The translations under genes and the position numbers were made by a program. This document shows, piece after piece, positions 17,513-21,714 of a stretch of 64,000 bases of DNA; positions within the stretch are counted from its first letter, which is position 1, and each line of letters begins with the position of its first letter. Under the pieces are notes generated by a model. It did not search any database, was not told the DNA's origin, and saw only the letters and a program-made list of their open reading frames with translations. Source of the DNA: Chlorobiaceae bacterium (GTDB lineage: Bacteria; Bacteroidota; Chlorobiia; Chlorobiales; Chlorobiaceae); the NCBI GenBank assembly GCA_013334565.1, contig JAAXXI010000002.1, positions 1 to 64,000 on the forward strand, in the 5' to 3' direction.

Positions 17513-18277
17513 TCAGTGCAACAGGCCGACAAGCGATTTTAGCTTGAGCCACCAGACAATCCATACCGCTTCCCTGATATTCTTTCTGGTCATTTTCGAT
17601 TTTCCAACCGACCTGTCGACGAAAACGATCGGAATTTCCCTGATGGTGAAACCCATTTTCCATACCCTGAAATGCATTTCTATCTGGAAAGAATATCCCT
17701 GCGAATTGATCCTGTCAAGGTCGAGCTTCCCAAGCACTTCGGCACTGAAGCACTTGAAGCCGCTTGTCGGATCTTCGACGGGCATACCGGTGATTACCCT
17801 GGTATAGATGCTTGCCATTTTCGACAGGATCAGCCTGCCGAGGGGCCAGTTCACGACATTCACAGTGTTGTTCATGTAGCGTGAACCAATGACGACACCG
17901 GGCGACTCTTTTTCCATCGTTTCAAAAAACTGCCTGATAACTTTTGGGTCATGTGAAAAATCGGCATCCATTTCGATGATATATCCGTACCCTTTTTCAA
18001 GGGCATATCTGAACCCTGTGATGTAAGCAGTGCCAAGCCCCAGTTTTTTTTCTCTCTGAATCAGGTGGAGGGACGGTATGTTTTCTTTCAGTCCGTTGAC
18101 AATAGCCGCGGTACCGTCAGGTGAATTGTCGTCGATGACAAGAATATCCAGCTCACCTGCATAGAGAGTATGGAGATCACCTATCAGCCTCCCGATATTT
18201 TCCGACTCGTTGTAGGTCGGTATGATAACGAGCGCATTCGCTGGGTATGCACGATCACCGTCGTTGTTGAATGACAT
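17513..18277 (-). CDS. Polyprenyl-phosphate mannosyl/glucosyltransferase (DPM1-like, GT2)
   Basis: Transfers a sugar from a nucleotide sugar to a polyprenyl phosphate carrier for use on the far side of the membrane. 254 residues from ATG 18277; a GTG two codons upstream is also open. It shows VIIPTYNESENI, DDNSPDGT, the metal-binding DADFSHDP, and SGFKCFS with QGYSFQIEM, all typical of DPM1-type GT2 enzymes. There is no C-terminal membrane anchor, only a hydrophobic last 20 residues. It stands alone, so its glycan product is not indicated. Confidence 0.88.
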   Translation of the reverse strand: MSFNNDGDRAYPANALVIIPTYNESENIGRLIGDLHTLYAGELDILVIDDNSPDGTAAIVNGLKENIPSLHLIQREKKLGLGTAYITGFRYALEKGYGYIIEMDADFSHDPKVIRQFFETMEKESPGVVIGSRYMNNTVNVVNWPLGRLILSKMASIYTRVITGMPVEDPTSGFKCFSAEVLGKLDLDRINSQGYSFQIEMHFRVWKMGFTIREIPIVFVDRSVGKSKMTRKNIREAVWIVWWLKLKSLVGLLH

Positions 18278-18665
18278 AAGCACGTTCTTTTCCGGAAATA
18301 TGCGGGATAATGACTATAAAAAAAAGAGCCTTGCGCTCAGTGAAACTTTTTTTCACTTTTTACCGGAGCAAGAAACACATATCCGCTATTCTGAATTCAA
18401 TATCCATGGACGTTCTTTTTTAATCATGCCTTTCTTTCCGACTCACTCGTCCTTCATCGGCACCGAATTGTCCTGAACGAAATCTTCATCCCGATTTCCC
18501 GTGACCATGCTTTGAACTGCGCTCCTGACAGGATCGGAACTCGGTCCTTCTTTTTTTTACTAACAAACAAGTGCCTTCGTGATATTGGAGGAAGTTGAAT
18601 GGCTTGAGGCCTGCGCTCTGAATAATCGCAATATGAGGATAATCAACGGAAGGCTGTTCCTGCCG
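18278..18665. other. Intergenic stretch upstream of the glycosyltransferase
   Basis: About 390 bases without a convincing gene. It contains several T-rich runs and presumably the promoter of the minus-strand glycosyltransferase. A 39-codon GTG-initiated frame (18579-18698, plus) runs through the pscB terminator and is not credible. Confidence 0.6.
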
Positions 18666-18740: not shown

Positions 18741-19442
18741 TTACCTCACTTCACGATGGAACCTGTGCAGGAACCTCAGATCGAAATCAAGCCTTTCAGG
18801 CGGCGTAAAGGAGAAATCGAGCACCTGACCGTCGGGCAGAACTTCGACAAGCGCTCCTGACGGACATTCGTCACCGGAGAAACATGCCGAACAGGAAATA
18901 CAGGCGTCCTGGTCGATATAGCAGCGGAACCCTCCTTCCTGGACATCACCGTAGAACTTGTATCCGATCGCGTTGACTTTGGGAGGACATTTGTCAAGGC
19001 AGAGCCCGCAGCCTACGCAAAGGTTCTCAAAAATAAAGTAATGCTTTTTTTCCCTCGGTGCAGCTTTTTTTGGTGCTGCTGCCGGAGCAGGTGCAGCTTT
19101 CGCAGCAGGAGCGGCAGGCTTTGCTGCGGGCTCTCCGCCAGCTTCCGGTGCCCCTTTGGGGGCAGGTTTCGCTGCGGGTTTCGGTGCAGGTTTCGGCGCT
19201 GCCTTTGGAGCGGCTTTTTTAACCGGGAGAGCTGATTCCTGTGGCAATCCGGTCCTGCCGAGGTTGACGTTCAAGGGATCGAGACGAGCTTTTCCTCCAG
19301 TCTCTCTGGGCGCTTCCTTGGGTTTCGCCTGTGCCTGCTTCGGTGCCGGAGCTTCGCCTTTTGGCGCACCCTTGGGCGCAACCTTCGGTTCGGCTTTCGG
19401 CGGTGCTGTCTCTTTATCTGGCTGTTGTACAGGATCGGCCAT
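18741..19442 (-). CDS. pscB: P840 photosynthetic reaction centre iron-sulfur protein PscB (FA/FB)
   Basis: Carries the terminal [4Fe-4S] clusters FA and FB of the homodimeric green sulfur reaction centre and passes electrons to ferredoxin on the cytoplasmic side. 233 residues: a very long Lys/Ala/Pro-rich tail (about 1-130), then a ferredoxin domain. Cluster ligands are C142, C145, C148, C152 and C181, C184, C187, C193; the second set has CX2CX2CX5C spacing with FSGDE inserted. The C-terminus (LRFLHRFHREVR) is basic. It follows pscA by 88 bases, so pscA-pscB form an operon ending in the strong terminator at 18.7 kb. Confidence 0.97.
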   Translation of the reverse strand: MADPVQQPDKETAPPKAEPKVAPKGAPKGEAPAPKQAQAKPKEAPRETGGKARLDPLNVNLGRTGLPQESALPVKKAAPKAAPKPAPKPAAKPAPKGAPEAGGEPAAKPAAPAAKAAPAPAAAPKKAAPREKKHYFIFENLCVGCGLCLDKCPPKVNAIGYKFYGDVQEGGFRCYIDQDACISCSACFSGDECPSGALVEVLPDGQVLDFSFTPPERLDFDLRFLHRFHREVR

Positions 19443-19530
19443 AAAAACCCTCCTCTTTAATTACATGATAAACTGTTAATGTCGATAAACACAACCGGAA
19501 GCGGTGTCCCGCTCCCGGCTGTGACAGAAG

Positions 19531-21714
19531 TTAAGCAATCAGCTTCATCAGGTAATCGACAACCTGCGTCAGTAATGCCTGACCGGTGATCGATGCATCG
19601 CTTACCGTCGGAGGCAGCGGCTGGTCGGTCTGATAGAAACCGTTGGCAATGAAGAGGAAGACCAGCATGAAGGTACCGCCGAAATAGAGGAAGGTACCGG
19701 CAAGCTTGGAGTCCGAAATCGTAAGGACCGGGAACCTGAACGAAACGTCGCGGCCGAGGAACTTCTTGCCGAGCCAGCGGATGGTCCTGGTCTGGATATC
19801 GGCACCTTCAAGACGCGAACCGCGATCTTCAAACCATACCGCGAAGCTGATGAACCATACGAGATGGCCGATCATCAGAATCGTCGAGAGGTGAGAACTC
19901 GAGAAGATCGTCACGGTTTCCGTCCAGAAGTAATAGAAGATGCCGGACGTGTAGTGATGGTGCAGATGAGCTACCGAATCCCATGCTTTCGCATCGGCGG
20001 CAGGAACACCGTACATCATGGAAGCGATCCATGCACCGTCGATATACCAGCAGACAGCTGAAAGACCTTTGACACCCCAGAGCATAGCGAACCAGAGCTG
20101 GTCCTGGATGGATACGCCGCAGGTACCGCCGTAAACCGGGCCGAGGCACGGGAACGAATACGAGTTCTTCTTGAGGCCGAGGTCATCCCACAGCGGTGAA
20201 GTGTGGGCGAAGAACGCGATACGGACAAGAGCGATCAGAGAGAACAGCGAGCCGGCGGTGATGACGTGCGCCATGACCCAGTCGTTGATGCTCGGATCGG
20301 CAAACATCCACTGGAAAACCGGAAGCGGTTTCAGCCAGTAGAACGACATCATGATGTTCGTGCCGAAAATGTTCAGCTCGCAGATGGTATTCCAGACGAT
20401 GACCGCATAAACCGAAAGCATTGTTGCAAAGCAGAGAGCCATGACGGTACCGAGGATCTTGACCTGGACTTCCTGGTCACGTCCTTTGGCGATCCAGATG
20501 GATTTGATCTGGCTGTAGAGGCCGTTGAGCTGGATCTTGAGGAGGTACTGTCCACCATGGTACACACCGGCAAAAACATAGAGCACGCCGCAGATGATAT
20601 GGTTGAAGGTGATGAGGTTGGTCACGACCCTTGACATACCGAAAGCTGAGCCGCTCTTCGGAAGAATTGCGAAAGCAGGGAAGTCTGCGAATTCCTTGGC
20701 TCCGGAGATAATCTTGCCGCCTTCTTCAACGAAGTTGTAGCTGACGCGGTTGAACGGTTCGCCGTAGAGGTAGAAAACGAGATCATCGAGTTTTTTGTAG
20801 TAAGGAGCGAAGGATGGCTGCTGGAAGGCCACGAAGGCGATCACGCCGAGCGCAATATTAATATAGCCGATTGCAGTCAGGTGAACGGAAAAAGCAGCCT
20901 TCATGTCATCGTTGAGATGGATGGCCGCGTTGGGCGGATTGTTCCACCAGTAGACACCGAGAGCGAAAAAGACGACACAGAAAACGAACGACATGAACGT
21001 TTCGGAGTAGATCGTCTGGAAATCAGGGATCGGAGGGAACCCGAGGACAAGCCACATCACGAGGCCCCAGCCGAGGAAAAGAAGCGACATGTAAACGGTA
21101 TGGGGTCCGAGCGCATCCTTGTAGGTTTTGGCGCTGGTGCCGCTGAATACGACGTCGCCGAACTTGCCGAGGAACCTGAAATCGCGGAAGTTACCTGCAC
21201 GGCCGGTGAACGGGTTGGTGAGGTTGTGCGTCCAGTGGCGCCATCCGCCGAAAAGCAGGATGGAACCCGAGACCAGATGAAGGATCGCCCATCCGATCAG
21301 TTTCGATGCGGCAAATTCAAGATCTTCTGTCTTTGTGCTGTACGTATCGATACCGAGGGAGACCATGCGGGGCTTGATGGTCAGGTAGAACCAGTTGTCG
21401 TGGAAACCAGGGGCACCCCACGGAAAGACCTGAATACCGGAGATGTAGTAGATTGCCATGAGGAAGCCAAGCACGCCCAGAAGCGCGAGGTGGCCACCGA
21501 CAACCTGCTCGTCATCAAGTTTTTCGGTATCGAAAATCTGATACCACTTGGTTGAGCGGGTTTCTGTCCTCTGGAACAGAAATCTTCTCATTTTGGCGGC
21601 ATCCTGCTCCTTGATCACGGATGGTGCGCCTCCCTTTGGCGAAGGAGCGCCCCCCTTGGGCGGTGGAACAGAGCCCTTTGGCTTGACTCCTGCCGGATTC
21701 ACTTGTTCAGCCAT
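19531..21714 (-). CDS. pscA: P840 photosynthetic reaction centre core protein PscA
   Basis: Core polypeptide of the type I homodimeric reaction centre, binding P840, antenna bacteriochlorophyll and cluster FX in the inner membrane. 727 residues from ATG 21714, which has AGGAGAG upstream; an upstream in-frame extension of 25 codons lacks support. Eleven hydrophobic segments are expected for the family. The FX loop CLGPVYGGTC (C523, C532) supplies two cysteines per monomer. Many membrane His residues (for example HLHHHYTSG and SSSHLST) fit pigment ligation. The N-terminus carries a Pro/Lys/Gly repeat (PKGGAPSPKGGAPS) resembling the tail of PscB. Confidence 0.99.
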   Translation of the reverse strand: MAEQVNPAGVKPKGSVPPPKGGAPSPKGGAPSVIKEQDAAKMRRFLFQRTETRSTKWYQIFDTEKLDDEQVVGGHLALLGVLGFLMAIYYISGIQVFPWGAPGFHDNWFYLTIKPRMVSLGIDTYSTKTEDLEFAASKLIGWAILHLVSGSILLFGGWRHWTHNLTNPFTGRAGNFRDFRFLGKFGDVVFSGTSAKTYKDALGPHTVYMSLLFLGWGLVMWLVLGFPPIPDFQTIYSETFMSFVFCVVFFALGVYWWNNPPNAAIHLNDDMKAAFSVHLTAIGYINIALGVIAFVAFQQPSFAPYYKKLDDLVFYLYGEPFNRVSYNFVEEGGKIISGAKEFADFPAFAILPKSGSAFGMSRVVTNLITFNHIICGVLYVFAGVYHGGQYLLKIQLNGLYSQIKSIWIAKGRDQEVQVKILGTVMALCFATMLSVYAVIVWNTICELNIFGTNIMMSFYWLKPLPVFQWMFADPSINDWVMAHVITAGSLFSLIALVRIAFFAHTSPLWDDLGLKKNSYSFPCLGPVYGGTCGVSIQDQLWFAMLWGVKGLSAVCWYIDGAWIASMMYGVPAADAKAWDSVAHLHHHYTSGIFYYFWTETVTIFSSSHLSTILMIGHLVWFISFAVWFEDRGSRLEGADIQTRTIRWLGKKFLGRDVSFRFPVLTISDSKLAGTFLYFGGTFMLVFLFIANGFYQTDQPLPPTVSDASITGQALLTQVVDYLMKLIA

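Follow-up and report, generated by a model that had tools for sequence, protein, structure and literature searches.

How does a photosynthetic reaction centre of the FMO type retain its labile iron-sulfur subunit and its antenna, yet leave room for ferredoxin? This open question is raised by the pscA and pscB genes in a stretch of 64,000 nucleotides from a Chlorobiaceae bacterium (GCA_013334565.1, contig JAAXXI010000002.1, positions 1 to 64,000, forward strand), hereafter the window. Both proteins, the reaction-centre core protein PscA and the F_A/F_B iron-sulfur subunit PscB of the P840 reaction centre, start with tails rich in Lys, Ala, Pro and Gly (K/A/P/G), and the published structure shows little of the PscB tail. 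Two things are new here: a conserved island lies in this invisible part of PscB, and the long tail is carried by PscB or by PscA according to lineage. The natural swap of the tail from one subunit to the other and the island make the function of the tail testable.

In the window, where all features cited below lie on the minus strand (-), pscB (18741..19442, 233 residues) stands directly downstream of pscA (19531..21714, 727 residues) on the same strand. The low-complexity PscB tail (residues 1-134, 19041..19442) precedes the ferredoxin domain and is 72% K/A/P/G with a net charge of +14, which bears out the tail of about 130 K/A/P-rich residues that a first-pass annotation of this DNA had described. 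The PscA tail (residues 1-41, 21592..21714) precedes MRRF and is 63% K/A/P/G, with a net charge of +3. Scored over the first 40 residues of the 337 open reading frames (ORFs) of at least 100 residues that were called from a 399-kb sample of this genome, the K/A/P/G fraction has a mean of 0.264 (standard deviation 0.085); PscB ranks first (0.70) and PscA third (0.65), so that the tail composition is a genuine outlier observation. Within the family, the tails of the window are of the ordinary Chlorobiaceae form.

Across lineages, the long tail changes its host subunit. It is found on PscB in Chlorobiaceae (family f1) and in Chloracidobacterium, which belongs to another phylum, and on PscA in the sister families f2 to f4, which are Chloroherpeton/Thermochlorobacter-type members of the same order (12 genomes, G086-G097). 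In these families PscA starts with MADQ... and has a K/A/P/G tail of 67-72 residues (13 rows from 12 genomes, G095 contributing two rows at 13% contamination), and PscB starts just 11-17 residues before its ferredoxin domain in 10/10 full-length sequences (G095 has a PscB fragment only and G088 gave no PscB match). PscB as a whole therefore cannot be defined by an N-terminal extension. A PscB tail hidden by a missed upstream start was ruled out in these families, the upstream in-frame stretch being short and not K/A/P-rich. Chloracidobacterium PscB has a K/A/P tail of 68-104 residues (4 loci), and its PscA, with only some 13 residues ahead of the first conserved WYQ, has none (2 loci). A long tail is present on PscA or PscB in 81/81 genomes with both tails complete (71 f1, 2 f2 and 8 f4), and on PscB in 4/4 cases in Chloracidobacterium. 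The first-pass annotation held that tails varying freely, or absent from close relatives without effect, would refute its idea; the PscB tail is indeed nearly absent from the ten sister-family proteins, but the long tail is on PscA there. The three kinds of long tail are alike in pooled composition (K 13-17%, A 29-31%, P 13-20%), and aromatic residues number 58/10,973, 0/904 and 0/314 in the three groups pooled separately.

Loss of FMO or of PscD was ruled out as the cause of the swap, since both genes are present in both Chlorobiales arrangements: among 98 Chlorobiales genomes surveyed, 95 have FMO genes and 96 have PscD genes, in each case including all 12 of the sister families. In a tree of the PscA core the sister families form a weakly supported grade and a single clade of them is not rejected (approximately unbiased test, p-AU 0.315), so that the swap may have run in either direction. 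Titles and abstract openings on the PscB N-terminal extension, PscB/FMO cross-links and Thermochlorobacter PscA, with subscription papers mostly outside this scope, hold no description of a change in the tail-bearing subunit. A PscB phylogeny by Figueras et al. (2002), cited in PMC8452559, may already include some comparison of the tails. To our knowledge, heliobacteria and photosystem I have neither a tail nor FMO. For Chlorohelix (Chloroflexota), which reportedly has an FMO gene, a PscB tail is not stated in the passages of PMC10972752 covered. PscD varies as well: in two Chlorobiaceae genomes (L279, L286) it has about 20 extra N-terminal residues relative to f2-f4 (L272-L278), where the PF10657 match begins at profile position 19 or later, and this lineage-specific N-terminal piece goes with the PscB tail.

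Within Chlorobiaceae (86 genomes), 76 PscA and 75 PscB tails were measured, both being complete in 71 genomes. PscA of G033, G071 and G024 and PscB of G061, G074 and G009 were left out for truncation at contig edges; a few other genomes were dropped because a gene was incomplete, split or without a match, and G082, with its duplicated tail, was excluded from the PscA alignment (75 sequences). The PscA tail is 45 residues long in 66/71 genomes with both tails. Its residues 1-20 (MAEQVNPAGVKPKGSVPPPK in the window, 21655..21714; consensus MAEQVxPAGVKPKGxVPPPK; mean majority-residue frequency 0.97 and 0.96 in 75 sequences) and residues 33-50 are near-invariant, and residues 21-32 are the most variable. 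The KMRR motif at residues 41-44 (21583..21594), counterpart of K45/R47/R48 in Chlorobaculum (Cba.) tepidum, is 97-99% conserved in the same alignment. In G082 (L117), the first 43 pscA codons are tandemly duplicated, with 125/129 bases identical and amino-acid differences between the copies; the resulting PscA tail of 88 residues either occurs naturally in this doubled form or reflects an oddity of the assembly.

The PscB tail is kept in 75/75 measured proteins, ranges from 120 to 215 residues, and is organized as a start, a spacer, the island, a second spacer and a basic patch, after which the ferredoxin domain begins. The start, MA(D/E)PV, is near-invariant; in the window it opens the N-terminal hook (MADPV..., residues 1-16, 19395..19442), and positions 1, 2, 4 and 5 are at 99% in the 75 sequences. 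The island, located by regular expression and alignment, occupies residues 50-76 in the window (GKARLDPLNVNLGRTGLPQESALPVKK, 19215..19295). Its pattern, GKxRLxxLNVxLGRxGxxQES, matches 73/75 proteins, the remaining two being near-variants; in an alignment of 42 sequences, K51, R53, G62, R63, G65, S70 and P73 never vary. The distance from island to ferredoxin domain is 49-171 residues, and the spacers vary in both sequence and length. The basic patch of the window (APKKAAPREKKH, 19041..19076) has 5 K/R in 12 residues, compared with 2-5 in the 75 Chlorobiaceae proteins, 5-8 in six sister-family PscB and 5 in four Chloracidobacterium loci. PscA and PscB tail lengths are not correlated in Chlorobiaceae (rho -0.01, n=71). 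Judged from these alignments, the two tails do not form one uniform charged brush: that of PscA is conserved in length and sequence, whereas that of PscB combines conserved motifs with variable spacers.

Codons were compared over up to 2,775 sequence pairs. Amino-acid identity is 0.733 in the island and 0.50-0.62 in the spacers, and the island's same-codon frequency (0.437) is near that of the core (0.481), which indicates that conservation of the island acts on the protein. Same-codon frequencies are higher in PscA 1-20 (0.735) and PscB 1-5 (0.863) than in the cores (about 0.5). At the very beginning of pscA (21655-21714) and pscB (19428-19442), codon choice thus varies much less within the family than it does in the cores, which suggests that the start of translation constrains the nucleotides themselves.

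Excerpts of the cryo-electron microscopy (cryo-EM) report on Cba. tepidum place the PscB N-terminal loop (1-16) on FMO1, to which the C-terminal loop also binds, leave residues 17-129 unmodelled, and show the tail as an unmodelled loop (PMC9529944). In the 231-residue PscB of G020, taken as Cba. tepidum, the island starts at residue 59, within this gap. Ferredoxin docking has been predicted near PscA K45/R47/R48 and PscB K149/K153, according to excerpts of PMC10968294; the counterpart of the PscA residues sits immediately after the PscA tail. Both sets of data fit the cytoplasmic, electron-accepting side on which the first-pass annotation had placed the tails.

A PscB N-terminus on FMO1, an island in the unmodelled gap and docking residues next to the PscA tail favour, at about even odds, a reading of the tails as flexible tethers that the FMO-type reaction centre carries on its cytoplasmic face. 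In Chlorobiaceae, the PscB tail would start with a short hook on the FMO1 trimer, a contact published for the Cba. tepidum PscB N-terminus only and extended to the window by analogy. A pliable Ala/Pro/Lys spacer would then lead to the conserved island of about 25 residues, which could bind a partner that purified complexes do not show; from there, a second spacer would run to the basic patch at the ferredoxin domain. Such a leash may keep PscB, which is easily lost, and the first FMO trimer attached to the reaction centre, and may fill the space beneath the antenna without blocking ferredoxin. The PscA tail may be a shorter arm that likewise begins next to the acceptor site. As the spacer need only be soluble, extended and rightly placed, evolution could shift the long arm between subunits, and the long tails of PscA and PscB may be equivalent. 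We hold it possible, although rather less than evenly probable, that the acceptor-side tail is a mobile module: the Chlorobiaceae line would have handed the long Ala/Pro/Lys tether from PscA to PscB, gaining a new FMO hook and binding island, the Chloracidobacterium PscB tether would have been built separately, and selection would act on the tether at the level of the complex and not of the single subunit. By sequence comparison, hook and island are lineage-specific modules.

Several points weigh against the tether. First, the Ala/Pro/Gly richness of the PscB tail follows the guanine-plus-cytosine (GC) content of the locus (K/A/P/G, rho 0.83, n=75 related genomes); the likeness in composition is thus in part a product of mutation and provides weak evidence for function. 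The constancy of PscA 1-20 and PscB 1-5 may likewise be partly nucleotide-level, because their codons are unusually constant. Second, the median net tail charge per reaction centre drops from +25 to +10 between families, being much lower in the PscA-tailed ones, and FMO is nearly neutral in six genomes (its net charge is +1 and 0 for the two Chlorobiaceae, -2 for both f2 genomes, and -5 and -6 for the f4 pair). Charge complementarity between tail and FMO was not supported in these six genomes, the tails being most positive in Chlorobiaceae, where FMO is least negative; with the drop in charge and no complementary FMO trend, simple electrostatic docking is not supported. Third, the PscB hook that touches FMO1 is missing in f2-f4 although FMO is present, and is thus not indispensable in general. 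The island had no match in 12/12 sister-family genomes at E <= 1, in a search whose short query gave it weak power (G020 itself reached only 1.5e-4), so that the tail changed hosts without the island's share of the function. An AlphaFold prediction of PscB from a 42-sequence alignment has a mean predicted local distance difference test (pLDDT) score of 45; since the core is also low, it gives no help on the tails. Finally, the parts of the literature covered contain no tail-deletion data. The tag of the 6xhis-pscA construct lies, as we assume, at the PscA N-terminus. Complexes with six-histidine-tagged PscA could still be purified; the chromosomal strain had a reaction-centre content near 20% of the wild-type level, for which its authors suggest lower stability or a polar effect (excerpts of PMC3842273); this result neither proves nor excludes a role of the PscA tail.

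Overall, the interpretation of the first-pass annotation is partly supported. Its step from shared composition to a common function gains from the finding that sister families have the long tail on PscA instead of PscB and loses with the part of Ala/Pro/Gly richness that follows GC. The comparison across Chlorobi that it proposed gave a long tail on one subunit wherever both tails were measured and a net charge that falls between families.

Other explanations were weighed against the same data. Lysine-rich tails around F_B could form a positive cloud that steers acidic ferredoxin electrostatically and concentrates it at the exit site. Long tails are net positive on PscB of Chlorobiaceae (+14 to +26) and Chloracidobacterium (+8 to +12), lysine content is 12.5-18.7% irrespective of GC (rho -0.13, among related genomes and with no control protein set), every lineage examined has a basic patch ahead of the ferredoxin domain, and the predicted docking residues adjoin the PscA tail (excerpts of PMC10968294). 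However, the long PscA tails of f4 reach only +2 to +3, and a generic cloud has no need of the island's conserved uncharged parts, so that we regard such steering as unlikely. Docking of the reaction centre, through the island or the hooks, to the chlorosome baseplate (CsmA) or to some other partner that purification removes is rather improbable. The island, though conserved as protein, falls within the unmodelled 17-129, so its partner may be missing from purified complexes; on the other side, it has no match in the 12 sister-family genomes, and no partner was identified, CsmA genes lying outside the search. Quite improbable is the view of the tails as mostly neutral low-complexity sequence, in which an N-terminus free of constraint expands by repeats and drifts in GC, and the spacers have no function. 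It would accommodate the GC trend, a PscB tail length unrelated to GC, the extra repeats of some genomes and the duplicated PscA tail of G082, but not a tail kept in every measured Chlorobiaceae PscB with hook and island conserved, a PscA tail of near-constant length, or long tails in three lineages on varying subunits. Finally, a translation-initiation or mRNA constraint on two very highly made proteins, in place of protein function, would suit the constant codons of PscA 1-20 and PscB 1-5 but is highly improbable, as the far-downstream island is conserved in amino acids without codon conservation, an Rfam search of the region gave no match to a known RNA family, and the PscB N-terminus is bound to FMO in cryo-EM (excerpts of PMC9529944).

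Returning to the window, the first-pass annotation had seen the shorter PscA tail as built from PKGGAPS. Exactly two copies are present (residues 19-32, 21619..21660), mostly within the variable part 21-32 of the tail, but 5/7 codon pairs differ synonymously, so the pair is not a fresh DNA duplication, and in perfect form it occurs in just 2/76 complete Chlorobiaceae PscA tails, those of the window genome and its nearest relative, both 41 residues long where the family mostly has 45. A functional repeat was rejected for this rarity and for its place in the variable part, and the PKGGAPS pair is a local accident. Recent repeat expansion in the DNA was also rejected: Tandem Repeats Finder detected only two short 12-base arrays, both of them in the PscB tail, whereas PscA gave none. 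The only other N-terminal K/P/A outlier in the sample is a 127-residue ORF with a K/P/A-rich stretch (MAQEEKKRGFFARFRKSAPEPPKPAAPAPK...; L263:3234-3614 (-), equal to G000:C12 ~67,234-67,614), just downstream of an apparent BchB C-terminus frame.

The PscA translation contains FPCLGPVYGGTCGVSIQDQLWF, aligned with the motif FPCxGPxxGGTC, which we take to be F_X-binding. The protein matches 6m32_A across residues 1-727 (E 0) and PF00223, the PsaA/PsaB-like core, at 32.3 bits against a cut-off of 23.3; by homology to 6m32_A it is presumably a homodimer with F_X and P840. PscB has Fer4 Pfam matches above cut-off and aligns over residues 9-233 with 6m32_B / 7z6q PscB (E 2.6e-82), its ferredoxin-type domain (residues 135-233, 18744..19040) carrying two 4Fe-4S motifs. 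A glycosyltransferase-like frame follows pscB (17513-18283), as it does at L135, in f2 genome G087, making a conserved neighbourhood. In genus g8 (G091-G094) pscA and pscB are on separate contigs in all four genomes, being adjacent elsewhere, and in G092 both contigs are long, so that the pair looks split.

The Ala/Pro-rich linkers of the pyruvate dehydrogenase E2 protein, which are extended and flexible between binding modules, offer an analogy from an unrelated protein and imply no membership. The closest known system is Cba. tepidum, whose PscB (PDB 6m32, 7z6q, 7uea, 7ueb, 8gwa) is the same subunit with the same tail plan, hook (MAEPV) and island (GKPRLASLGVTLGRSGVRQES, from residue 59), and differs in spacer sequence and length (a tail of 132 residues, 134 in the window). 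Its PscA (731 residues) shares the MAEQVxPAGVKPKGxVPPPK start and also KMRRFLFQRTETR after the tail, but is four residues longer and lacks a perfect PKGGAPS pair. Chloracidobacterium (Acidobacteriota) resembles the window in a K/A/P-rich PscB tail before the same ferredoxin domain, and differs in the motif near that domain (PPIPGPPNRLSRPK) and in a PscA without a tail. The Chloroherpetonaceae / Candidatus (Ca.) Thermochlorobacteriaceae-type genomes (G086-G097) share homologous cores, FMO and PscD genes and one subunit with a K/A/P-rich tail; unlike in the window, this long tail is on PscA, with practically none on PscB and no island.

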